Assembly (NCBI GenBank): GCA_026002855.1
Contig: BPGD01000001.1
Coordinates: 3,232,001 to 3,296,000 of the forward strand
Length of the DNA: 64,000 bases
Origin: Bryobacteraceae bacterium
GTDB taxonomy: Bacteria; Acidobacteriota; Terriglobia; Bryobacterales; Bryobacteraceae
Direction: 5' to 3'
Part shown: positions 5,125 through 17,189 of the stretch, piece after piece
How positions within the stretch are numbered: position 1 is the first letter of the stretch
Layout of the letters: the number at the start of each line of letters is the position of its first letter
Notes under the pieces: model-generated
Database searches by the model: none
What the model saw: only the letters and a program-made list of their open reading frames with translations
What the model was told of the DNA's origin: nothing
Translations under genes and position numbers: made by a program

Positions 5125-5151
5125 CTCTTCATGCAGGGGTTGTCTACAATC

Positions 5152-8100
5152 ATGTCAACAAACACACGGATCTGTACGCTGTTCGCTCTTCTGGCCCTGT
5201 TGGCCCTGTCTGCCAACGGGCAAACGATCACTGGCGCCATCACTGGCACCGTGACGGATCCTTCGGGCGCGATCGTTCCGAATGCAACCGTCACGGCGAC
5301 CAACACGGCCACGAACCTGACGTATGAGACCCGGACGAACGAAGCCGGTGTCTACAATCTGCTGTTCCTCCCTGTGGGCGATTATACGGTCACGGTCGCT
5401 GCACAGGGCTTCAAACGTTCGACCCTGGGACCATTCAAGCTGGAAGTGAACCAGACGGCACGCGTGGACGTGCGCCTCGAAGTGGGCGACACGACGCAGA
5501 CCGTGGAAGTGCGCGACATTGCGCCCATCCTCCAGACGGAGTCCACCCAGACCGGCGACACGCTGACATCGCAGAAGCTGACGTCGCTGCCATTGAAGGG
5601 CCGCAACTTCGTGTCCATGACGCTGCTGATTCCCGGCGCCGTCTCGCCGAACCCGGAAGCGACCAACAGCCGCTTCGGCGCGCGTCCCTACGTCAACGGC
5701 AACCGTGAGCAGACCAACAACTTCATGCTCGACGGCATCGACATCAACGACTCCATCGACAACCGCGTCGGCTACTCGCCCAACGTGGATGCTCTCGAAG
5801 AAGTGAAAGTGCTCACCGGCAACATGGGTGCCGACTACGGCAACGCCGGCGGCGCCACGGTGATGCTCACCATGAAGAGCGGCACCAACCAGTTCAAGGG
5901 CAACGTCTTCGAGTTCCTCCGCAACGAAAAGCTTGACGCCAACGGTTTCTTCCGCAACCGCAACCCGAACACCGCGAAGCGGCTCGGCTACAAGCGAAAC
6001 ATCTTTGGCGGCACGCTTGGCGGCCCCATCCGCCGCGACCGCGCCTTCTTCTTCGTGAACTATGAAGGCACCGAGCAGCGCACCAGCGGCCCTGCTTCGG
6101 CCAGCGTGGCCCCGCAGGCCTGGCGCCAGGGTGACCTGAGCCAGTTCCCCAACGTCATCCGCGATCCCCAGGCCGGCGGCGCGCCCTTCCCGGGTAAGCA
6201 GATTCCTCAATCGCGCATCGTCAATCCCGTAGCCAGGAAGCTGTTCTCCAGCCCGGACCTCTACCCGCTGCCAAACCAGGCCGGTGCCGGCGCTTTGGGC
6301 GTCAGCGGCAATTATGCGTCTTCTTCGGCCAGCACCCTGAAGAACCATCAGGGCGACGCCAAGCTCGACTACCGGCTCAGCGACAAGGACAATCTCTCCG
6401 GCCGCATCAGCTGGGGTGAGTATGAGAGCTACGGCAGCCGCACGGCCCTGCCCGTGAACATGACCTCGGGCCAGCTCGGCCCCACGCGCTCGGGCGTCAT
6501 CAACTGGGTGCGCACCTTCTCGCCGACCATCGTCAACGAGGCCCGCGTGGGCTTCTCGCGCATCATCATCAAGGACACCACCGTCGACTGGTCCGGCAAG
6601 CTCGGTCCGAACGGCAACCAGGCGTTCGGCATCCCGGGCGGCCAGCCGGTGCCAGGGCTCAGCTCGGTGAGCCTCGGCAGCGGGCTCACCTCGGTGGGCG
6701 CCAGCGGCATTTTCTCCAACACCGCCGACAACAAATACACCTACTACGACAACCTCACCTGGCAAAAAGGCCGGCACCTGCTCAAGATGGGCGCGCAGTT
6801 CATGCGCTACCAGCAGAACCGCTATTACTCCGGCAACAACGGCGTGCTCGGCATCTTCAGCTACAACGGCACCTATACCGGGCTGGATTACGCCGACTTC
6901 CTGCTGGACCAGCTGGCCAGCAAGGGCCGTGGTTCGGCCACCGGCACCTGGGGCCACCGCTTCTGGCGCTCCGCCTTCTTCGTGCAGGACGACTGGAAAG
7001 CGGCTCCCAATTTCACCGTCAATATCGGCCTGCGATACGAATATATGCAGCCGATTTACGAAGTCGCCGACCGCCAGGTCAACATCGACACCTTCAACGG
7101 TGTGTTGCAGTACGCCGGCAAGAACGGCAACAGCCGCGCGCTTTACAAGCCTTACAAGAACCAGTGGATGCCGCGCATCGGATTCGCCTGGACGCCCGGC
7201 ATCCTGAGCAACAGGCTGGTGGTGCGCGCCGGCTGGGCCTATATGAGCTTCATGGAAGGCACGGGCGCCAACCTCCGCCTGCCGCTGAATCCGCCGTTCT
7301 TCATCGAGACCAACTTCAACTACGACGTCAACGCGCCCGGCTCGATCACCACCGGCTTCGCCGACGTCGTCACCTCCGACATCCGGCTCGACATGCCGCG
7401 CCCGGCCGGTACGGTTGTGCCGCAGCTCCAGGGCCGCGCCTGGCACCCGGACCTGCGCCCGCAGACGACCTCGCAGGTCAATTTCACCCTGGAATACCAG
7501 ATCGATAAATCGACGTCGATCTCGGCCGGCTACGTGGGTCAGAAAGGCACGCACCTGGTGGCCCCGGTCGAGGCCAACCAGCCGCTCCCCGGCACCGGCC
7601 CTGTCTCCACCTGGCCGAACCTGAACCTGCGCCGGCCGCTGATCAACAAGCTGCCGAACGTGGGCAACATCGCGCGGACCGAGTCCTCAGCCACCATGGA
7701 TTACCACTCGCTCCAGCTTTCCGCCCGCCGCCGTTACTCAGGCGGCCTGGAGATGCTGGCCAGCTACACCTTCGGCAAGACGCTCACGGACAACCTGGGC
7801 TACTACGGCAGCGCCTTTACACAGGGCGAAGGCGCATACTGGCAGAACGCCTATGACCGCCGTGCCAACCGCGGGCGCGCTTTCTTTGACGCCCGGCACA
7901 ACCTGAGCATCGGCGCCCTCTATGACCTGCCATTCGGCAAGGGCAAGAGGTTCGGATCGAACATGCCGAAAGCCGCCGAACTGCTCTTCGGTGGCTGGAA
8001 CATCAACACGATGGTCCTCGCCCACAGCGGCTTCCCGATCACCGTCCGCGCCATCGATCGGACCAGCCAGGCCGTTCGTGGCAATGTCCGCGCCAATTAC

Positions 8101-8496
8101 TTCCGCAAGCTCGTCAAGAACGAGTCGCTCGTCAATGTCGACAACTTCTTCGGCCTGCCGACGGACACGGCCGCACGCACCGCCTTCTTCTGCCCGGCGG
8201 GCGTCGATGACGGCAAGTGCCCCTACGGCAACCCCGGCGACGGCCTGTTCGGCACCGCCAGCATCGGCACCGAGCAGGCGCCGAGCTTCTTCTCAATGGA
8301 CTTCTCCATCGGCAAGAAGTTCTACGTGTCCGAGTCCCGCTACTTCGATTTCCGGACGGAGTTCTTCAACGCTCTCAACCACGTGAGCTGGGCTCCGCCT
8401 CCGGCCAACATCGGCTCGCCGGCGACCTTCGGCGCCGTCACCGCGCAGGTTCAGTCGCCGCGCAACATCCAGTTCGGACTGAAGTTCTACTTCTAG
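5152..8496 (+). CDS. TonB-dependent Oar-like outer-membrane protein
   Basis: The 1114-residue protein has a signal peptide (ICTLFALLALLALSANGQ) followed by a CarboxypepD_reg-like Ig-fold domain (~residues 25-110: GTVTDPSGAIVPNATV, then GVYNLLFLPVGDYTVTV). A plug domain follows (LKGRNF, NNFMLDGIDIND, DYGNAGGATVMLTMKSGTNQFKG), and then a long beta-barrel ending in aromatic FGLKFYF. This is the typical acidobacterial Oar/CarboxypepD-plug family, thought to import or move oligomers through the outer membrane with TonB energy. The start at 5152 is preferred because of AGGGG ~12 nt upstream and a proper signal peptide; ATG 5131 is the alternative. It stands alone and is closed by a strong terminator. 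The substrate cannot be told from sequence. Confidence 0.93.
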   Translation: MSTNTRICTLFALLALLALSANGQTITGAITGTVTDPSGAIVPNATVTATNTATNLTYETRTNEAGVYNLLFLPVGDYTVTVAAQGFKRSTLGPFKLEVNQTARVDVRLEVGDTTQTVEVRDIAPILQTESTQTGDTLTSQKLTSLPLKGRNFVSMTLLIPGAVSPNPEATNSRFGARPYVNGNREQTNNFMLDGIDINDSIDNRVGYSPNVDALEEVKVLTGNMGADYGNAGGATVMLTMKSGTNQFKGNVFEFLRNEKLDANGFFRNRNPNTAKRLGYKRNIFGGTLGGPIRRDRAFFFVNYEGTEQRTSGPASASVAPQAWRQGDLSQFPNVIRDPQAGGAPFPGKQIPQSRIVNPVARKLFSSPDLYPLPNQAGAGALGVSGNYASSSASTLKNHQGDAKLDYRLSDKDNLSGRISWGEYESYGSRTALPVNMTSGQLGPTRSGVINWVRTFSPTIVNEARVGFSRIIIKDTTVDWSGKLGPNGNQAFGIPGGQPVPGLSSVSLGSGLTSVGASGIFSNTADNKYTYYDNLTWQKGRHLLKMGAQFMRYQQNRYYSGNNGVLGIFSYNGTYTGLDYADFLLDQLASKGRGSATGTWGHRFWRSAFFVQDDWKAAPNFTVNIGLRYEYMQPIYEVADRQVNIDTFNGVLQYAGKNGNSRALYKPYKNQWMPRIGFAWTPGILSNRLVVRAGWAYMSFMEGTGANLRLPLNPPFFIETNFNYDVNAPGSITTGFADVVTSDIRLDMPRPAGTVVPQLQGRAWHPDLRPQTTSQVNFTLEYQIDKSTSISAGYVGQKGTHLVAPVEANQPLPGTGPVSTWPNLNLRRPLINKLPNVGNIARTESSATMDYHSLQLSARRRYSGGLEMLASYTFGKTLTDNLGYYGSAFTQGEGAYWQNAYDRRANRGRAFFDARHNLSIGALYDLPFGKGKRFGSNMPKAAELLFGGWNINTMVLAHSGFPITVRAIDRTSQAVRGNVRANYFRKLVKNESLVNVDNFFGLPTDTAARTAFFCPAGVDDGKCPYGNPGDGLFGTASIGTEQAPSFFSMDFSIGKKFYVSESRYFDFRTEFFNALNHVSWAPPPANIGSPATFGAVTAQVQSPRNIQFGLKFYF

Positions 8497-8654: not shown

Positions 8655-9215
8655 TCACTGTCATGAAATCCGGACCGTTTCTTTCCCGGATCTCATGGCT
8701 TTTCCGCCTGACGGTTCCTGTCCTGCTCCATCCGGATCAGTTCCACCGCGGCGCAGAGGCGTGTCACGAACTGTTCCGACTTCAGCGCCTCGCGCAGAAT
8801 GCTCACCGCCTCCCCGGTCCCAATGGCCGCGATGGCCTCTGCTGCCGCCGCCGTCAGATCATGCCCCCCGGCCCTCCTCTCCTCCAGGATCGCCTTCAAC
8901 TGCGGCAGCAGTTCCGAAGCGCGAAGTTGGCCCGCGGCCTGCACCGCGTAGAGGCGCACGGTCTCCACGGAGTCGCGCAGGAGATCCTCCAGCCGCCACG
9001 CTTCATCCTGAGTCAGGAACCGCCCGGCCAGACGCGCGGCTTCCAGACGGAGTGCAGGGTCTGGACTGCCCAGGGCGCTCAGCAGGACGGGCCTCCCGCT
9101 GAGATCGCCCTGTTCCAGCAGTAGTCTGGCCGCCGTCAGGCGGTTCCATTCGTCGGCGTCCTTCAGCATGGCCAGCAGCGGCTCACGCCTGCCGGTGATG
9201 CTTGCCAGGCTTTCG
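8655..9215 (-). repeat. A/H array repeat, copy 4 (H3 3' part)
   Basis: Nearly identical to 11118-11675: it covers the last ~170 codons of H3. Only about 40-50 bp beyond the H3 stop still match the start of an A gene (the region up to TTCATGAC), after which similarity stops. The array therefore ends in the beginning of a lost fourth A gene. Confidence 0.8.
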
Positions 9216-10165
9216 GCGGCCTGAAACCGTGCCACAGGGGAAGGATCCAGTTGGGCAACGGCGCGAAGTCCATAAGCTGCGTCTGCCAATCCGGCCAACC
9301 TTGCCGCGGAAATGGCGAACAATCGCTTGCTCTCGTCTTTGTCGGACAGCCAGACCAACACTGTTCGTCTCGCCTCGACGTCCCCGCAGACGGCCAGGTC
9401 TTCAAGCATGGCTCGGGCTCGCTTTTCATCCGACTCTTTCATGGCTTGCTCCCGCAACAAGTTCAGGCCCGCCGGGTTCCTCAGGCGGCAAAGCGCCGAT
9501 GCGGCTGTTCGCTGTAAACGGGCATCCGCGTGCTTCAGGAACATGGCAATGTCCGATACGGCCGCCGTCACCTGCATTCCAGCCAGCAGCTCCATGGCCA
9601 CCATCTGAATCTGGGAGTTCCCAGACCGAAGTAGCTTCCGAAGACCATCGGCGGTTCCAGGCTTTCCAGCGAGCTCCCACATGCGCGAGGTTGCTGCCAT
9701 CCGGACGAGCTCTGCCGGATCGTCCATCCCGGCAGCGACCATCTCCGCCGCATCCGGATGCTCCGACCTGGCCAACGCCTCCAGCAGCCACATGCGGGCC
9801 CGTACCGACGGGAATGAGTGCGAGTCGTTTGCTGCCCTCTCCCGCCAGTATGCTGCCAGCAATTTCTCCGCCATGCCCGGGTTTGAGCGAAAGCGCAGGG
9901 CATTGGCCGCGTCCATTCTTGTGCCAGCCCATGCATCGTTCAGTGCCTCCAGGAGCCACTTTTCGCTCACGGGATCGGACAGCCTCCGCATCATAAATGC
10001 GATCGTGAAGTGGCGTACCATGGCGTCGGAATGCTTCCTTGCCGCAGCCACGATTTGCCATTCAAGGGAGGACGTCTGCACCTGCGCGGCGGAGAGTGAA
10101 TTCAGCAGAATTCCCCGCATCAGAAGCACAGCTACGGCGACACAGTATTGCTGGGAACTCACCAT
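8693..10165 (-). CDS. Exported HEAT-repeat protein H3
   Basis: 490 residues. The start ATG overlaps the stop of A3 (ATGGTGA), so the two are translationally coupled. An N-terminal hydrophobic signal (MVSSQQYCVAVAVLLMRGIL) precedes roughly ten HEAT/PBS-lyase-like helical repeats such as DPSPVARFQAAESLASITG and LLQDS-type helices. The last ~170 residues are almost identical to H2 and the last ~70 to H1, whereas the N-terminal two thirds differ. HEAT solenoids bind protein partners; an enzymatic role is not suggested. It is the last gene of the A/H operon. A more distal frame extension (to 10228) is open but has no ribosome site. Confidence 0.85.
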   Translation of the reverse strand: MVSSQQYCVAVAVLLMRGILLNSLSAAQVQTSSLEWQIVAAARKHSDAMVRHFTIAFMMRRLSDPVSEKWLLEALNDAWAGTRMDAANALRFRSNPGMAEKLLAAYWRERAANDSHSFPSVRARMWLLEALARSEHPDAAEMVAAGMDDPAELVRMAATSRMWELAGKPGTADGLRKLLRSGNSQIQMVAMELLAGMQVTAAVSDIAMFLKHADARLQRTAASALCRLRNPAGLNLLREQAMKESDEKRARAMLEDLAVCGDVEARRTVLVWLSDKDESKRLFAISAARLAGLADAAYGLRAVAQLDPSPVARFQAAESLASITGRREPLLAMLKDADEWNRLTAARLLLEQGDLSGRPVLLSALGSPDPALRLEAARLAGRFLTQDEAWRLEDLLRDSVETVRLYAVQAAGQLRASELLPQLKAILEERRAGGHDLTAAAAEAIAAIGTGEAVSILREALKSEQFVTRLCAAVELIRMEQDRNRQAEKP

Positions 10166-11127
10166 GAGAGCACCAGGAAAGCCACTTCTGCCCAATCGTA
10201 GTGGTACCTTTGAATCTGCTGTGGCCATAGAAAATGACCGCGCATGGTCATCTCCTGGTGGCGGACCGCCTCGAACCCGGCCGGAATCCCATCCATCGTG
10301 CTCACAAAGAGATGATCGAAGAGCTGGCCAGTTGTCTCTGAGTATCCTGTTTTTGGCACTCCATCGGGCGGATCGAAAGCCGCCGGGTGGGAAACGGACT
10401 CCGTGTGAAGCGCCTCCGTCACAGCAATTTTGCTCTCGATATCCTGAAAAAACTGGTCTTTTACGAAATACGTAATGGATGTCAAATAAGCCACGAGTCT
10501 GCCGCTGCTGTCATACAGGCGGGTCGTCATGGCTGGGCCCCCACGTTCAGAAGCCGCGAGACTTCTGGTCTCCCTTACCGTGAATCTCACCGACGCCATC
10601 GCCGTCTGCCCGCCGACCGTGTAACTCACCTCCACCCAGGTGTCGCCGATGCTGGAACTCTCCTGCGTGCCCATCACGGCCGTGTTGGCAGACGCGCCGC
10701 TGCCGGCCAGCGACAGCTTCGGGCCCAGTTGCCAGACATACGCCCCTCCACCCGGGTATCCTGTCGCCGTCAGGGCCGTCGTCTCACCGGTCAGCACAAA
10801 GCCGTTCGAGCCCTGCCGTTTGGCGGGTTCCACCTGAATCGTCACCCTGGGCGCCACCGCGACCGTCGCCGCCACGCCGCCCGCTCCCACCAGGCCCGCG
10901 CACGAGCAGAACAGGCTGGCCACGCCCGTTACCGTGTAAGTTCCCATCCGCCCGTTGGTGGGCACCGCCACATACGACGTGAATCCGGAAGAAGTCACCG
11001 TGGATTGCGTCCCGTCGGGCGCGTACACGGTGGTCCGCGTCTGGTAGCTGCCGTGCCCGCACGTGCACAGACTGCTGTTGTCCGAGGTCGTCGAAAAATT
11101 GAGAGTGGCTGTTCTGCTCTCCGTCAT
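10159..11127 (-). CDS. Ig-like variable-tail protein A3
   Basis: 322 residues, family unknown to me. Residues ~10-200 are almost identical to A1 and A2: a beta-rich stretch with two Cys-x-Cys motifs (CTCGHG, CSCAG) and a TATGYPGGGAYVWQLG Ig-like strand pair. The last ~120 residues (from RETRSLAAS) differ from the other copies at about two of three positions but keep ITY..DQF, PDGVPK and a terminal VLSW. Unlike A1 it lacks a signal peptide: the frame begins MTESRTAT inside the repeat boundary. It sits 28 nt after H2 and overlaps H3. It could be inactive for export, or rely on another start. Confidence 0.75.
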   Translation of the reverse strand: MTESRTATLNFSTTSDNSSLCTCGHGSYQTRTTVYAPDGTQSTVTSSGFTSYVAVPTNGRMGTYTVTGVASLFCSCAGLVGAGGVAATVAVAPRVTIQVEPAKRQGSNGFVLTGETTALTATGYPGGGAYVWQLGPKLSLAGSGASANTAVMGTQESSSIGDTWVEVSYTVGGQTAMASVRFTVRETRSLAASERGGPAMTTRLYDSSGRLVAYLTSITYFVKDQFFQDIESKIAVTEALHTESVSHPAAFDPPDGVPKTGYSETTGQLFDHLFVSTMDGIPAGFEAVRHQEMTMRGHFLWPQQIQRYHYDWAEVAFLVLSW

Positions 11128-11675
11128 GAAGTCCAGGCAGTTTCGCTCCGCGATCTCACTGCTTTGGCGCCTGACGGTTCCTGTCCTGCTCCATCCGGAG
11201 CAGTTCCACCGCGGCGCAGAGGCGTGTCACGAACTGTTCCGACTTCAGCGCCTCGCGCAGAATGCTCACCGCCTCCCCGGTCCCAATGGCCGCGATGGCC
11301 TCTGCTGCCGCCGCCGTCAGATCATACCCCCCGGCCCTCCTCTCCTCCAGGATCGCCTTCAACTGCGGCAGCAGTTCCGAAGCGCGAAGTTGGCCCGCGG
11401 CCTGCACCGCGTAGAGACGCACGTTGTCCGGGGAGTCGCGCAGGAGATCCTCCAGCCGCCACGCTTCATCCTGAGTCAGGAACCGCCCGGCCAGACGCGC
11501 GGCTTCCAGACGGAGTGCAATGTCTGGACTGCTCAGGGCGTTCAGCAGGACGGGCCTCCCGCTGAGATCGCCCTGTTCCAGCAGTAGTCTGGCCGCCGTC
11601 AGGCGGTTCCATTCGTCAGCGTCCTTCAGCATGGCCAGCAGCGGCTCACGCCTGCCGGTGATGCTTGCCAGGCTG
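10565..11675 (-). repeat. A/H array repeat, copy 3 (A3 5' part + H2 3' part)
   Basis: About 1.1 kb that is nearly identical to copy 2 (13019-13811) over its first ~800 bp and to copy 4 (8655-9215) at its right end. It spans the C-terminal coding part of H2, the short gap and the N-terminal coding part of A3. Differences are scattered single bases, so the copies are recent or kept alike by gene conversion. Confidence 0.88.
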
Positions 11676-12610
11676 GTCGTGGCCGAGGTGCGGACAGCCA
11701 CAGATGGGTCGCGCTCGGCTGCCTGCCGTAAAGCCGGCACCGCCTCAACCAACCCTGCCAGGCCGATCCCGGAAGAAGCACGGGCGCGCTCCAGCGGATC
11801 CCTGTGTGACAGGCCCGTCATCAATAGGCTCCGGGCTTCGCCGTCGCCCAGATGAGCCAGGGCGATCAGCACGGATCGATTCTTCGCCCCTTCCCTTCGA
11901 AAGACCTGCCGGAGCAGATCAATTCCGGCCTGGCTATCCAACTCTGCAAGTAGAACCGCGGCCTCAGTACGCACTCCACCGTCAGGGTCGCTCAGCAGCC
12001 TCAGCAAGTAGCGGACGGCTTCTCGCCTCAACACATTTTTCAACGCCCGCATCGCCCAGATCCGGGTTTCCGGGTGCGCGGAGGCGAGCCCGCGTAGAAG
12101 CGCCGGGACAGCCGGTTTTCCCATGCGTTCCAGGGATCCAAGAGCCATAATCCTCACCATGGACGCCGGATCGTCCAGGCCGATTTTGACCGCCTCTGCG
12201 GCGTTGGGGTGGCCCGACTTTGCGATTGCGTCAAGAAGTAGGACGCGCGCAAAAATGGAGCCCTCCTCCATGCTTTCTTTCGATTCCTTCTCGCGCCGGT
12301 AGGCAGCCACCAACTCGGGCATCATGACGGCGGAAACACGCTCGCGGAGAGGGATCGCGGCCACGTACGAAGTGCCCGGCGATGCATTCTGTAAGGCGTC
12401 CAGCAGCATCTTTTCCGAGACCGGATCGGACAACCGCGCCAGCCTGCGCAGCGCCAACTCCCACCCACTCGCCGCTCGGCTGCCAACCGCCGTACGAACA
12501 ATCGCCCACTCCGACTCCGGCTCCCCCTGGTGGCCGAATGACAGTCCTGCTGCTCCCAGAAAGAAGCAGATGAGCGAACAAAGCCCACCTGGAAAGATGA
12601 CACGCCTCAT
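11156..12610 (-). CDS. Exported HEAT-repeat protein H2
   Basis: 484 residues. The start ATG overlaps the A2 stop (ATGA), and the N-terminus MRRVIFPGGLCSLICFFLGAAG is a good signal peptide. HEAT-like repeats run through the protein (e.g. DPSVAVRTSATTSLASITG). The C-terminal ~170 residues match H3 almost perfectly (LLAMLKDADEWNRLTAARLL to the end) and the last ~70 match H1. The N-terminal region is its own. It is placed between A2 and A3 in the leftward operon and is probably a periplasmic or surface scaffold. Confidence 0.85.
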   Translation of the reverse strand: MRRVIFPGGLCSLICFFLGAAGLSFGHQGEPESEWAIVRTAVGSRAASGWELALRRLARLSDPVSEKMLLDALQNASPGTSYVAAIPLRERVSAVMMPELVAAYRREKESKESMEEGSIFARVLLLDAIAKSGHPNAAEAVKIGLDDPASMVRIMALGSLERMGKPAVPALLRGLASAHPETRIWAMRALKNVLRREAVRYLLRLLSDPDGGVRTEAAVLLAELDSQAGIDLLRQVFRREGAKNRSVLIALAHLGDGEARSLLMTGLSHRDPLERARASSGIGLAGLVEAVPALRQAAERDPSVAVRTSATTSLASITGRREPLLAMLKDADEWNRLTAARLLLEQGDLSGRPVLLNALSSPDIALRLEAARLAGRFLTQDEAWRLEDLLRDSPDNVRLYAVQAAGQLRASELLPQLKAILEERRAGGYDLTAAAAEAIAAIGTGEAVSILREALKSEQFVTRLCAAVELLRMEQDRNRQAPKQ

Positions 12611-13578
12611 CTTGAAAGCACCGTGAATTTTATGGTTGCGAAGGCCGGTGTGTATTCCTGGATCTGCACTGGCTCCAACTGGACAGGCGACCCTCGGAGG
12701 TACCATCTCTGTTGCCGGACCACCCTGAAGTCGGATGGCAATGGCTCCGAGGAAATTGCGGATAGGCGATCCATTACCATTCCCAATTCGTTCGAGACGT
12801 CATTCTTGGGTGTACCATCCGGCAATTCAGGATCAAAGAATGCAGGAGGATTTGCTGTCACGGTATTCAGAATTTCGGTCGCCTGCATTCCGGCTAACCG
12901 GATGGTCTCGCCAAATTGATCCTGAAAAGCGTACGTGATCCATGTGACGTAACCGTAGCCAGACGGTGCAGCCACCGTGACGCCAGGTCCTCCGGCTGAA
13001 TTCGCTGCAAAGCGACGCGCCTCCCTTACCGTGAACCTCACCGACGCCATCGCCGTCTGCCCGCCGACCGTGTAACTCACCTCCACCCAGGTGTCGCCGA
13101 TGCTGGAACTCTCCTGCGTGCCCATCACGGCCGTGTTGGCAGACGCGCCGCTGCCGGCCAGCGACAGCTTCGGGCCCAGTTGCCAGACATACGCCCCTCC
13201 ACCCGGATATCCTGTCGCCGTCAGGGCCGTCGTCTCACCGGTCAGCACAAAGCCGTTCGAGCCCTGCCGCCTGGCGGGTTCCACCTGAATCGTCACCCTG
13301 GGCGCCACCGCGACCGTCGCCGCCACGCCGCCCGCCCCCACCAGGCCCGCGCACGAGCAGAACAGGCTGGCCGCGCCCGTTACCGTGTAAGTTCCCATCC
13401 GCCCGTTGGTGGGCACCGCCACATACGACGTGAATCCGGAAGAAGTCACCGTGGATTGCGTCCCGTCAGGCGCGTACACGGTGGTCCGCGTCTGGTAGCT
13501 GCCGTGCCCGCACGTGCACAGACTGCTGTTGTCCGAGGTCGTCGAAAAATTGAGAGTGGCTGTTCTGCTCTCCGTCAT
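12607..13578 (-). CDS. Ig-like variable-tail protein A2
   Basis: 323 residues. Its first ~200 residues are the same as A3 and, past residue ~10, the same as A1, including CTCGHG and CSCAG. The tail from REARRFAANS is the most different of the three (AFQDQFGETI, ELPDGTPKND, terminal TVLSR). No signal peptide; the start is MTESRTAT, 28 nt after H1. The frame stays open upstream for about 70 nt into the H1 3' end, so readthrough by frameshifting or coupled re-initiation is possible but unproven. Confidence 0.75.
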   Translation of the reverse strand: MTESRTATLNFSTTSDNSSLCTCGHGSYQTRTTVYAPDGTQSTVTSSGFTSYVAVPTNGRMGTYTVTGAASLFCSCAGLVGAGGVAATVAVAPRVTIQVEPARRQGSNGFVLTGETTALTATGYPGGGAYVWQLGPKLSLAGSGASANTAVMGTQESSSIGDTWVEVSYTVGGQTAMASVRFTVREARRFAANSAGGPGVTVAAPSGYGYVTWITYAFQDQFGETIRLAGMQATEILNTVTANPPAFFDPELPDGTPKNDVSNELGMVMDRLSAISSEPLPSDFRVVRQQRWYLRGSPVQLEPVQIQEYTPAFATIKFTVLSR

Positions 13579-13811
13579 GAAGTCCAGGCAGTTTCGCTCC
13601 GCGATCTCACTGCTTTGGCGCCTGACGGTTCCTGTCCTGCTCCATCCGGATCAGTTCCACCGCGGCGCAGAGGCGTGTCACGAACTGTTCCGACTTCAGC
13701 GCCTCGCGCAGAATGCTCACCGCCTCCCCGGTCCCAATGGCCGCGATGGCCTCTGCTGCCGCCGCCGTCAGATCATACCCCCCGGCCCTCCTCTCCTCCA
13801 GGATCGCCTTC
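13019..13811 (-). repeat. A/H array repeat, copy 2 (A2 5' part + H1 3' part)
   Basis: About 790 bp nearly identical to the left ~800 bp of copy 3. Identity to H2 ends abruptly near 13811, in the codons for KAILEE/RASELLP, whereas H2 and H3 stay alike for another ~320 bp. The break points differ between pairs, as expected from separate recombination or conversion tracts. Confidence 0.88.
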
Positions 13812-15070
13812 AGCTCCGGCAACAGCTCCGATGCGCGAATCTGCGCGGCAGCCTGCACGGCATGGAGGCGCATCGGATGATTGCCGGTCTCACGCATCAA
13901 GGGCACGAGACGGCTCCAGTCTGCTCTGCCCCATATGCGGCCGAGCACCTGGGAAGCCTCCAACCGGACCTGGAGGGATGTGCTTGACAGCGCTGCCTCA
14001 ATTACAGGCTTTCCGGTGAGGTCTCCCCGCTGCAACAAAGCGATTGCAGCCTGCACACGATTCCATTCATCCGGGTCGTTGAGCAGCATGTGCAACGGCT
14101 GGCGGAGGGTTGTCAGCTCGGCCAGGCTCAGCGCAGCAGCCATGCGCACCGGGGGGGAGGCGTCGCTTTCCACCCTCTGTCTCAAGGCTGCAACGGCCTC
14201 TCGTAGCCCCACACGTCCAATCAAGGAAGCTGCTTCGCGCCGTACGCTCTCCTCTGCGTCGGAGAGCTGGACCAGGAGCATCTGCTTCGCAGCAGGGTCA
14301 CCCGCCCGCGCCAGGCATTCGAGCGCCGGTGTGCGCGCACGGCCGCCGCGGCGCAATAACGGCCGAACTTGGGTTTCACCGCTTAAGTCGCCCAACTGGC
14401 ACAACGAGATTGACGCGGCCTCCCGGACCCGGGAGTCGGGATGATCGAGGACTCTCTTCAGATCCGCGGCCGTGCCCGCGTCGCCGATGATTCCAGCTAC
14501 CGTGGCCGCCGTCAGGAGTTGGTCGATGGAAGTGCTTTCTCTCAGCACTCGGCTCAAAGCACGCCCTGCTTCCGGGTGTTTCCGGAGCACTACAATCATC
14601 TGCGCGGCTGCACCGGATCGAACGCGGCTGTCCGGATCGGCCATCGCATCTGCGACGAACTGGGCCACGCCGCTGGCCCCAGACCGTGCCACGGCTTCCA
14701 CGAGCAGGAGCCGTATCCAGAAACCTGCGCCGGAATCTGATTGAAGTTCCTGGAAGTAGGCGGCCTCCAAGCGTTCCGCAAAACAAGCCTTGGGACGCCG
14801 CCGGAGCGCGTTTGCAGCCGCAGCACGGATTGCCGGTCTGGGGTCCTCCAAACCCTTGAGCAGCAACGCGCCACTCCTGGAATCCGACAGGCGCGCCAGC
14901 AATTCCATCGCAAATGCTCCGATGTGAAATTCGCCGTGCTGAATCGCCTGCTCGACCACCTGCCAGCTCTCATCCCCGCTCACTACGCTCCTGCTTTTCA
15001 CCGGCAGCAATGGAAGGCTGACCGAAATGATCAGAGCAACAGTCCTCACCCAGGAGCCCGGCTTCACCAT
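13607..15070 (-). CDS. Exported HEAT-repeat protein H1
   Basis: 487 residues starting MVKPGSWVRTVALIISVSLPLLP, a signal peptide, with the ATG overlapping the A1 stop by 7 nt (ATGGTGA). HEAT-type helices cover the whole mature protein (e.g. DPDSRVRSGAAAQM, HPDSRVREAASISLCQLGD). Only the last ~70 residues (ILEERRAGGYDLTAAAAEAI to the end) are shared with H2 and H3. It is the most diverged H member and lies next to the only A protein with a signal peptide, so A1-H1 may be the founding pair. Confidence 0.85.
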   Translation of the reverse strand: MVKPGSWVRTVALIISVSLPLLPVKSRSVVSGDESWQVVEQAIQHGEFHIGAFAMELLARLSDSRSGALLLKGLEDPRPAIRAAAANALRRRPKACFAERLEAAYFQELQSDSGAGFWIRLLLVEAVARSGASGVAQFVADAMADPDSRVRSGAAAQMIVVLRKHPEAGRALSRVLRESTSIDQLLTAATVAGIIGDAGTAADLKRVLDHPDSRVREAASISLCQLGDLSGETQVRPLLRRGGRARTPALECLARAGDPAAKQMLLVQLSDAEESVRREAASLIGRVGLREAVAALRQRVESDASPPVRMAAALSLAELTTLRQPLHMLLNDPDEWNRVQAAIALLQRGDLTGKPVIEAALSSTSLQVRLEASQVLGRIWGRADWSRLVPLMRETGNHPMRLHAVQAAAQIRASELLPELKAILEERRAGGYDLTAAAAEAIAAIGTGEAVSILREALKSEQFVTRLCAAVELIRMEQDRNRQAPKQ

Positions 15071-16161
15071 GACAGCACCTCATGGACGACTTCCGCGAAA
15101 GTGGAGGAATACCGTTGGACCTGAGTCGGCCACAGCATGGTGGACCGCAGAATCCAGTCCTGGTTCCGAATCGCAGAAAAGAACTCCGGTAACGGCTTTC
15201 CGCCGTTCTCGAGGCTGAGATAGTCGAAGAAGGTTCCGTTCATTTGCGAAAATCCCTGTTGCGGAACCCCGTCCGGCGGCGAGAACTGGACATTTGATTG
15301 AGACACTGAAACCGTCCGGAGTGTCTCGATGGCGACGATGCCTGCCAACTCTATATTGTTGTTGAATTGATCTCGCACAACGTATGTGATGTTTGTGAGA
15401 TAGCCGATAAGCTTGGCATTGGCATCGAATTGAAGTGTGGTCCCGCCCGGTCCGCCAAGGCTCAACGCGACAAGCCGTCTGGTCTCCCTTACCGTGAACC
15501 TCACCGATGCCACCGCCGTCTGCCCGCCGACCGTGTAACTCACCTCCACCCAGGTGTCGCCGATGCTGGAACTCTCCTGCGTGCCCATCACGGCCGTGTT
15601 GGCAGACGCGCCGCTGCCGGCCAGCGACAGCTTCGGGCCCAGTTGCCAGACATACGCCCCTCCACCCGGATATCCTGTCGCCGTCAGGGCCGTCGTCTCA
15701 CCGGTCAGCACAAAGCCGTTCGAGCCCTGCCGCCTGGCGGGTTCCACCTGAATCGTCACCCTGGGCGCCACCGCGACTGTCGCCGCCACGCCGCCCGCCC
15801 CCACCAGGCCCGCGCACGAGCAGAACAGGCTGGCCGCGCCCGTTACCGTGTAAGTTCCCATCCGCCCGTTGGTGGGCACCGCCACATACGACGTGAATCC
15901 GGAAGAAATCACCGTGGATTGCGTCCCGTCGGGCGCGTACACGGTGGTCCGCGTCTGGTAGCTGCCGTGCCCGCACGTGCACAGACTGCTGTTGTCCGAG
16001 GTCGTCGAAAAGCCGTAAACCATCGTCACGTCCTCGCTCAGCGCAGCGTCGTTGTACACGCTCACGTTGAAGATCATCTGGCATTGCGCCCCGGCGCGCG
16101 GCGCCCATGCCAGCAGACAGAACACGGCAGCCAACACGATAGACACCGGGCGGATCCTCAT
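15064..16161 (-). CDS. Ig-like variable-tail secreted protein A1
   Basis: 365 residues with a clear signal peptide (IVLAAVFCLLAWAPRAGAQ) and then a short unique stretch (QMIFNVSVYNDAALSEDVT) before the shared core with CTCGHG, CSCAG and GGGAYVWQLG. The tail from RETRRLVALS is particular to this copy (VVRDQFNNNIELAG, PPDGVPQQG, VLSW end). It is 13 nt downstream of the helical exported protein at 16175-16846 and overlaps H1. Function unknown; an adhesin-like or binding role is only a guess from the Ig-like fold. Confidence 0.82.
   Translation of the reverse strand: MRIRPVSIVLAAVFCLLAWAPRAGAQCQMIFNVSVYNDAALSEDVTMVYGFSTTSDNSSLCTCGHGSYQTRTTVYAPDGTQSTVISSGFTSYVAVPTNGRMGTYTVTGAASLFCSCAGLVGAGGVAATVAVAPRVTIQVEPARRQGSNGFVLTGETTALTATGYPGGGAYVWQLGPKLSLAGSGASANTAVMGTQESSSIGDTWVEVSYTVGGQTAVASVRFTVRETRRLVALSLGGPGGTTLQFDANAKLIGYLTNITYVVRDQFNNNIELAGIVAIETLRTVSVSQSNVQFSPPDGVPQQGFSQMNGTFFDYLSLENGGKPLPEFFSAIRNQDWILRSTMLWPTQVQRYSSTFAEVVHEVLSW
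15479..16013 (-). repeat. A/H array repeat, copy 1 (A1 core)
   Basis: About 535 bp nearly identical to the corresponding parts of A2 and A3. Similarity ends sharply at ~16013 (GTCGTCGAAAA), where A1 continues with its own signal-peptide-bearing N-terminus while A2/A3 continue into the H tail. Confidence 0.88.
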
Positions 16162-16174
16162 GGTTGCCGCCTCC

Positions 16175-16846
16175 TCACGGTTTTGTGCCGTAGATCACGA
16201 TCCGCCGTTTGACGTGCGTGCGGACGTGGTTCTCGATGCGGGCGAACGCCTCCTCCGGCAATGTCCGGCGCAGATCTTCGACCGCGGCCGACGACAACTG
16301 TTTTCGCTCCGCCAGCAGGGACGCGATGCGCTGGGACGTTTCCAGAGTCTTCGCACCCTGAGCGGCCTTTTCGAGGGCGCGCTCGTTCTCCTTCAGCGCG
16401 GCCTTCAGGCCGGCAAGAATCCTCTTCAAGGCGGCCTGATGATCGGGCTCCAGCCCAAGCGGACGCAACTGGGCCTCCTGCCGCTTCCGGTCCGGCTCGA
16501 GGGCGTTCTCCTCCAGCGCAATGGCGGCCAGGAAGTGCGCCCAGGCCAGATCGTCCGGAATGGCCTCTGGCGTCCGGTCTCCATCCACCAGCAAAGGCAG
16601 ATGAGAGGGGTGTTCGGCGTGCTGCGCCCACAGTCTCTCCTGAGGGAGAGCGGCGAAAAGAACCAGCAGCAGCCACGGGAATCGGCAATCTCTTCCACAG
16701 CGCCCGTGTCGCTTCGCGTCCGGGTGAGGCCCGCTCTGCCGGCCCTGTTTGGTGTCAGGCCCTGGCCAAGCCAGGCGGAACAGGGCGGCCGCACCAGCGA
16801 GGAAGCAGGAGGCACGCATCGGAAACCCCAAGGGCTTTGTCGCCAT
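16175..16846 (-). CDS. Exported helical protein heading the A/H operon
   Basis: 223 residues from the ATG at 16846, chosen because GAGGAGG lies 9 nt upstream. The frame is open further up to 16969 without a ribosome site. The N-terminus is hydrophobic (ASCFLAGAAALFRLAW) and a second hydrophobic patch (FPWLLLVLFAAL, then WAQ) could be the true signal sequence if translation starts later. The C-terminal ~120 residues are charged helices (LKRILAGLKAALKENERALEKAA, LLAERKQL) ending IVIYGTKP. I do not recognise the family. It precedes A1 by 13 nt and is likely co-transcribed. Confidence 0.65.
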   Translation of the reverse strand: MATKPLGFPMRASCFLAGAAALFRLAWPGPDTKQGRQSGPHPDAKRHGRCGRDCRFPWLLLVLFAALPQERLWAQHAEHPSHLPLLVDGDRTPEAIPDDLAWAHFLAAIALEENALEPDRKRQEAQLRPLGLEPDHQAALKRILAGLKAALKENERALEKAAQGAKTLETSQRIASLLAERKQLSSAAVEDLRRTLPEEAFARIENHVRTHVKRRIVIYGTKP

Positions 16847-17189
16847 GCGCTCGGTCCTCCTCTCGGCCAAGCCAGGTCTCCCGAATCCGTCCGCGGCGGT
16901 CTGCCGCTGCGGCATTCTGTGAAACAGGCTTTGGATCCTGTGTCCATCGCTTTTGTGCGGGCTGCCCAATAGGGCGTCCTTTTTTTTCGAAATCAGAACA
17001 GAGCATTGTTTTTCAATAAATTACAGGGGGGGTGAGGCGCGTCGGGTGCGCGTTGTTCCGAATTCGGAACCAACCACACACCCGCCATCGGCATTTTCGG
17101 CCGGATTTGGTTCAGGCGACAGGAATTGTCAGCCCGAAGCGGATCTGCGGGTTTCCCGGGCGATCCGCTCTTCGCTGACGGGCTAGACT
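16847..17189. other. Divergent intergenic region
   Basis: No gene is visible. It holds an AT-rich tract (16978-17026, with TTTTTTTT and TTTTTCAATAAATTA) and a 16-bp palindrome (separate entry) between the leftward A/H operon and the rightward methyltransferase gene. It is the obvious place for the operon promoter, though no clear -35/-10 pair stands out. Confidence 0.5.
17055..17070. promoter_or_regulatory. 16-bp perfect palindrome, candidate operator
   Basis: GTTCCGAATTCGGAAC is fully self-complementary. It sits in the divergent region upstream of both the A/H operon and the methyltransferase gene, where a dimeric repressor or activator could act. A 16-bp perfect palindrome is improbable by chance in a 340-bp spacer. 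Confidence 0.45.

Follow-up and report, generated by a model that had tools for sequence, protein, structure and literature searches.

The window analysed here is a stretch of 64,000 nucleotides from a Bryobacteraceae bacterium (G000 C1:3232001-3296000 in the host genome), and its minus strand carries a gene cluster in the order B, A1, H1, A2, H2, A3, H3. The three A/H pairs are direct units spanning 8693-16161, which is where the initial annotation had placed a three-unit array. The genes, all on the minus strand, are as follows; signal peptides and lipoboxes were judged by eye throughout, without a prediction program.

16175..16969, minus strand: B, a small protein with a hydrophobic N-terminal stretch, preceding A; its start is uncertain, and the ATG at 16816 was used
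15064..16161, minus strand: A1, with a signal-peptide-like start, a constant N-terminal domain (N domain, to residue ~128), an immunoglobulin (Ig)-like core and a variable tail (from residue ~230)
13607..15070, minus strand: H1, a HEAT-repeat partner with a signal-peptide-like start (Pfam HEAT_2, 1.5e-34)
12607..13578, minus strand: A2, truncated at the 5' end, without signal peptide, with its own tail
11156..12610, minus strand: H2, a HEAT-repeat partner starting inside the ATGA overlap with A2 (HEAT_2, 2.5e-37 with the longer frame)
10159..11127, minus strand: A3, truncated at the 5' end, without signal peptide, with its own tail
8693..10165, minus strand: H3, a HEAT-repeat partner (HEAT_2, 9.6e-35 with the longer frame)

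All six A/H frames are open, and the A and H genes overlap in every unit, by ATGGTGA in units 1 and 3 and by ATGA in unit 2. While A1 is a 365-residue protein, A2 and A3 start inside the mature protein behind a short unrelated leader, and the signal-peptide-like start of A1 is gone. H2 and H3, unlike A2 and A3, have retained theirs.

Aligned with each other, the units form a mosaic of near-identical borders and divergent cargo, the latter being the A tail plus the H head. The segments, again on the minus strand, are listed below.

15478..16011, minus strand: upstream border of unit 1 (A core), 525/534 and 524/534 identical to units 2 and 3
13015..13548, minus strand: upstream border of unit 2 (A core), compared by base counts
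10564..11097, minus strand: upstream border of unit 3 (A core), compared by base counts
13607..13850, minus strand: downstream border of unit 1 (H 3' end), 232/244 and 228/244 identical to units 2 and 3
11156..11670, minus strand: downstream border of unit 2, ~0.5 kb common with unit 3, the last 244 nt also with unit 1
8693..9207, minus strand: downstream border of unit 3, ~0.5 kb common with unit 2
13851..15477, minus strand: cargo 1 (A1 tail + H1 head), DNA identity 47-49% to units 2 and 3
11671..13014, minus strand: cargo 2 (A2 tail + H2 head), end approximate
9208..10563, minus strand: cargo 3 (A3 tail + H3 head), end approximate
13549..13606, minus strand: joint H1/A2, H downstream flank with a new ATG replacing the first codons of A, identical to 11098-11155
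11098..11155, minus strand: joint H2/A3, identical to joint H1/A2

The initial annotation had described the H 3' end and the following A 5' end as nearly identical from unit to unit, and the A C-terminus and H N-terminus as strongly different. Both halves of this description hold: the A core is 98% identical (523/534 in pair 2-3) and the last 244 nt of H are 93-98% identical (238/244 in pair 2-3), whereas the cargo DNA is 47-57% identical (739/1582, 767/1575 and 906/1589 for pairs 1-2, 1-3 and 2-3). The cargo value is highest in pair 2-3 because the 3' ends of H2 and H3 are common over ~0.5 kb and that of H1 over only ~0.24 kb. The H border is thus pair-dependent, while the A border is sharp within a few codons. 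As proteins, the cargos are still homologous, with A tails 40-49% and H heads 37-50% identical; the 50% belongs to pair 2-3, which falls to 37% upstream of its longer shared end. The 100 bases 3' of the H1 stop codon equal those 3' of the H2 stop codon (100/100). The flank after H3 still resembles these joints in its first 40 bases (29/40; 51/100 over the whole), and the leader of A2 and A3 therefore seems, from this residual similarity, to derive from sequence 3' of H.

The borders and the cargo also differ in age. Synonymous divergence (dS) between units is 0.02-0.04 in the A core and 0.02-0.09 in the H end. In the A tails, synonymous sites are saturated (proportion of synonymous differences, pS, 0.80-0.83), and the H heads show pS 0.72-0.73 with dS of 2.3 and 2.6 in pairs 1-2 and 1-3. 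Pair 2-3 has pS 0.55 and dS 0.99 over the whole H head, and pS 0.72 and dS 2.4 upstream of its shared end. Between the host genome and the congener G003, dS is 0.23 for A1 residues 1-128, 0.35 for residues 52-128, 0.43 for the neighbouring methyltransferase and 0.73 for B. Since the values for the A1 N-terminus between species lie above those of the borders and far below the near-saturated cargo, the borders postdate the species split, which the cargos long predate. Judging from these distances, equalisation or copying of the borders took place after the split. The cargo is older than sequence of the age of the species split and older than the array, and is therefore not a product of drift inside the array; simple drift after tandem duplication, which had been set against the idea of swapped cassettes from the start, is ruled out by this contrast.

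As each species has a single genome in the collections, the search for the same array elsewhere was made at the level of four congeners (G001-G004), not strains. The methyltransferase adjoining the array is present in all four (93-97%), and the three units are present in none. Next to the methyltransferase, G003 and G002 retain B and the A N-terminus. The alignment with G003 ends at window position 15781 (A residue ~128), after which the G003 protein continues with an unrelated tail up to the contig end; the same site thus holds other cargo in a related species. The alignment with G002, which belongs to the window's own genus and is 79% identical to the window over 6.8 kb, ends at 15765 (residue ~133), and there the A frame is broken and ends early. 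In G001 and G004, neither A, B nor H finds a match in the whole assemblies, and the A and B profiles find none. A full-length relative of H is absent from the four congeners, with one weak match elsewhere in G003 (E 2.8e-4).

A profile of the A N domain found 12/257 genomes of the order at E <= 0.01 and 1/396 genomes of a phylum sample, the window's own, at E <= 0.001, while a B profile found 28/257 genomes of the order at E <= 0.01. At 17 loci, some of which are broken, the matches to the two profiles adjoin each other; the surroundings of 31 of the 46 B-profile matches were read, the other 15 being mostly weak. The recurrent order around these loci is B, A, partner, and the same N domain is joined to unrelated tails. 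Besides the window type, these include an M23 peptidase (locus L080, Pfam 4.7e-14), short cysteine-rich (Cys-rich) tails (L079, L081 twice, L082 three times and L009 of the host genome), a long tail common to L083 and L087, and another tail on a B-A fusion (L086). At L023, B precedes an M15-peptidase protein (PF08291, 3.3e-16). The partner families differ as well, being HEAT, RHS-repeat-like, one common to L083 and L087, and unmatched ones, and are mostly unrelated to one another. Signal-peptide-like starts are present in the partners of the M23, M15, window and L083/L087 tails and absent from those of the Cys-rich and L086 tails, with the partner of unit c of an array in G570 ambiguous. This pattern by tail class is expected if the partner sits where the tail acts.

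The host genome holds two further near-identical B-A loci ~120 kb apart, L009 (G000 C1:4279000-4292000) and L008 (G000 C1:4400000-4412000). The copy at 4.289 Mb has a full Cys-rich tail and two similar partner genes; in the copy at 4.409 Mb, A is cut short directly in front of a transposase-like gene. Proteins that resemble A more distantly and carry different tails were seen at L132, L134, L135 and L137. By eye, the partners at L135 and L137 are alike and B-like genes lie upstream at L134 and L135; the L134 partner has a weak HEAT_2 match (0.0047, below cut-off). The present profiles probably capture only part of the system.

The window type of tail was followed separately with a core-plus-tail profile, which matched 3/396 phylum genomes and 7/237 family genomes. 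Beyond G000 and G569, the matches cover mainly the Ig-like core and some run into the tail, while the G553 match is to the tail end only. At two G569 loci, the window core and tail stand on a different N-terminus, each overlapping a HEAT gene, and in G553 (L108:1334-2000) a HEAT-repeat frame (HEAT_2, 1.3e-15) comes after a decayed tail of the window type. A window-type tail is thus followed by a HEAT gene or frame at 6/6 places examined (three window units, two in G569, one in G553), out of seven tail-search matches in all, with the G639 match (E 0.0028) outside these six.

The suggestion that the A tail and the following H change together extends to the family, where tail and partner families co-segregate, with exceptions. 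In an all-against-all comparison of 19 loci, 32 pairs were tail-related, 25 partner-related and 22 both; random re-pairing gave a mean of 4.7 shared pairs and reached 22 in 0/100,000 shuffles. With one locus per array (13 loci), 9 pairs were tail-related, 6 partner-related and 5 both, against a shuffled mean of 0.70, and 5 was reached in 9/100,000; in both counts the loci are hand-collected, the shuffles ignore relatedness and the window tails include the near-identical core. G003 C67 (contig ending in A), G002 C163 and G018 C135 (broken A frames), the host 4.409 Mb copy (transposase at the tail) and the B-only or distant loci L022, L024 and L088-L098 were left out, whereas G618 and G464 C1001, whose A frames are broken, were kept with their downstream piece. 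The age contrast, the other tail at the same site in G003 and this co-segregation support the proposal that cassettes are swapped between homogenised borders. Exchange happening at present is not supported here.

A second array, on G570 C317, consists of one B and three A-partner units. Its A 5' parts are mostly 82-98% identical, with the similarity of units a and c reaching further than that of b; beyond it, both tails and partners diverge. All three A proteins have a signal-peptide-like start, so the loss seen in A2 and A3 is not general in such arrays.

B had no Pfam match and no relative in the PDB below E 0.041, and PDB sequence searches with L083, the tail profile, the G003 A protein and the B profile returned nothing below E 0.034. 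The predicted structure of A1 is all-beta except for the signal-peptide-like helix (predicted local distance difference test, pLDDT, 71.0; predicted template-modelling score, pTM, 0.47), and Foldseek aligns this model with multidomain chains of the Ig, cadherin, integrin and adhesin kinds (22 matches at E <= 0.001, template-modelling score (TM-score) <= 0.32 by query length). The tail modelled separately is a beta-sandwich (pLDDT 74.7, pTM 0.68). Structure yielded no name for the tail, the A1 matches being generic and the tail-only model having no Foldseek hit at E <= 0.001. Two other names were dropped: a Nis1 match of A1 (E 0.0097, residues 32-111) is weak and below its cut-off, and a lytic transglycosylase assignment for the L083/L087 tails, suggested by motif, found no library support (Pfam, NCBIfam and PDB for L083, Pfam for L087).

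We compared the locus with known systems as far as parts of three sources describe them. In polymorphic toxin systems, a constant 5' gene body receives 3' cassettes that bring their own immunity gene (PMC3482391), and the window resembles them in its constant N-terminus, exchangeable C-terminus and linked downstream gene. HEAT repeats are among the immunity domains listed there and lineage-specific N-terminal domains are described, although Imm-HEAT is paired with Ntox34 and Tox-REase-7, unlike in the window; the parts of that source examined contain no entry for this N domain or tail. The cdiA-CT/cdiI modules of contact-dependent growth inhibition (CDI) likewise combine a constant N part, a swapped C-terminal part and a partner directly downstream, and they include tandem orphan pairs, many of them homologous to the upstream full-length gene, with which recombination has been proposed (PMC4927057). 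In contrast to CDI, the 3' end of the partner is also shared here, giving homology on both sides of the cassette, A1 has only 365 residues, and neither A nor B has a Pfam match to the CDI hallmarks CdiA/TPS (two-partner secretion) and CdiB. The same source describes orphan Rhs-CT/RhsI modules that can recombine with the full-length gene (PMC4927057), a further likeness, but RHS_repeat matches occur in one partner family and not in A. Among the systems known to us, the nearest three-gene parallel would be SitBAI of Myxococcus, which has the order accessory-effector-immunity, an accessory protein with a type I signal sequence, and SitA1 and SitA2 with similar N-termini and unrelated C-termini (PMC5562445). 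SitA differs in being a lipoprotein delivered by outer-membrane exchange (PMC5562445), whereas A1 has no lipobox consensus.

From these observations, we consider B-A-H to belong probably to a polymorphic effector/partner family, specific to this lineage, that operates in the manner of a polymorphic toxin-immunity locus. The likeness to polymorphic secreted protein/partner systems noted in the initial annotation is supported by two of their traits, a constant N-terminus with unrelated C-termini and an adjacent downstream partner that tracks the tail type; a role of A as a surface protein is not supported here. In the proposed reading, A would be an exported carrier with a constant N domain and an exchangeable tail, H would be the cognate partner, likewise exported, and most likely serve in immunity or restraint by binding the tail outside the cytoplasm, and B would be an accessory of A. 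Several points weigh against it, in addition to the limits of the pairing counts given above. A1-A3 match no Pfam family above cut-off and A1 none in NCBIfam, so that the window tail corresponds to no toxin or enzyme there, nor to any PDB entry below E 0.078, and A and B match no known delivery family (Pfam for both, NCBIfam for A1). The tail model resembles only generic beta-sandwich domains such as adaptin ears. Our confidence in toxicity is moderate, mainly because this structure allows a binding or non-enzymatic role. At L023, the N domain was not detected in the M15-tailed protein, which is linked to the family through B. In the pairing count, 10 pairs are related in the tail only and 3 in the partner only; the partner of the host-genome Cys-rich tail is unlike other Cys-tail partners, that of G570 unit c resembles them only weakly, and in G618 a HEAT partner accompanies a tail without detectable likeness to that of the window, so HEAT partners are not exclusive to the window tail. 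The same-site comparison itself was made among congeners, each species represented by one genome.

Within this effector/partner reading, unit 1 would be the exportable slot, and units 2 and 3, whose A lacks a signal peptide, would be orphan cassettes that keep their partner genes. Near-identity is maintained in the A core and at the H 3' end, so that recombination or gene conversion across the two borders could exchange an A tail and H head in a single step with both genes in frame, and homology on both sides, inside A and inside H, would allow the other units to survive the exchange. With the signal-peptide-like starts that A2 and A3 lack, H2 and H3 could act as partners against tails met before. 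We put forward tentatively, at less than even likelihood, that the array is a double-bordered cassette exchanger, in which signal-less A/H units serve as a silent library and gene conversion through both homogenised borders overwrites the tail of the exportable unit and the head of its partner at once. The partner would then be a hybrid with a constant C-terminal end, unlike at CDI or Rhs loci, where the whole immunity gene is replaced, and the array would be the bacterial counterpart of antigenic-variation cassettes, here serving an effector family and perhaps used in conflict between bacteria.

A passive account of the array, compatible with an effector function of A1/H1, has recent unequal exchange as the source of the copies of A core and H end, a few old imports as the source of the cargo, and A2 and A3 as remnants, without any selected swapping device. 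It draws on the lost signal peptides of A2 and A3, the joints identical over 100 bases as from one recent duplication, the broken copies elsewhere in the family (G002, G553 and the host 4.409 Mb copy) and the G570 units, whose signal-peptide-like starts indicate that signal-less store copies are not general. The six open frames speak against it, as do the same constant/variable split in two separate arrays and the differing H border of H1 and H2/H3, which requires at least two events. We regard this passive origin as possible but doubtful.

A different function is conceivable, in which A is secreted as an adhesin or matrix protein, H is dedicated to its folding or assembly, and the array diversifies binding specificity without toxicity. 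The all-beta A1 model and its low-scoring matches to Ig, cadherin, integrin and adhesin chains would suit such a protein, as would a tail predicted to be a generic beta-sandwich, the general use of HEAT proteins as binding scaffolds and the large FG-GAP-like protein that adjoins the G569 pair. We find it unlikely, as the N domain on an M23 peptidase and B before an M15 peptidase look more effector-like, the mostly unrelated partner families nevertheless track the tail, and a partner without a signal-peptide-like start, found in two tail classes, would be odd for the chaperone of an exported protein. Self-remodelling is a common role of M15 and M23 enzymes, and A/H might accordingly be the cell's own wall-remodelling enzymes and their inhibitors instead of weapons; with the locus absent from two of four congeners, interchangeable tails that misfit a housekeeping role and a window tail without an enzyme match, this is very improbable. 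The polymorphic effector/partner family thus remains the reading we prefer. A literature search, judged from titles and the beginnings of abstracts, found no description of it among the papers listed. To our knowledge, little is known of how acidobacteria compete, and the locus indicates a family equipped with a carrier domain and an accessory gene of its own, and would be a clear case in which two-sided cassette homology lets effector tail and partner head move together.

A PADLOC search with six proteins did not favour anti-phage defence, as only H1 matched, to a HEAT-ARM repeat model. At L091-L094, the gene after the B homologue belongs to a second A-like family in which neither a variable tail nor a partner is obvious; this may be a non-polymorphic form. 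Convergent with the array, on the plus strand at 5131-8496 of the window, lies a gene for what we take to be a large TonB-type outer-membrane protein with a carboxypeptidase-regulatory-like N-terminus.
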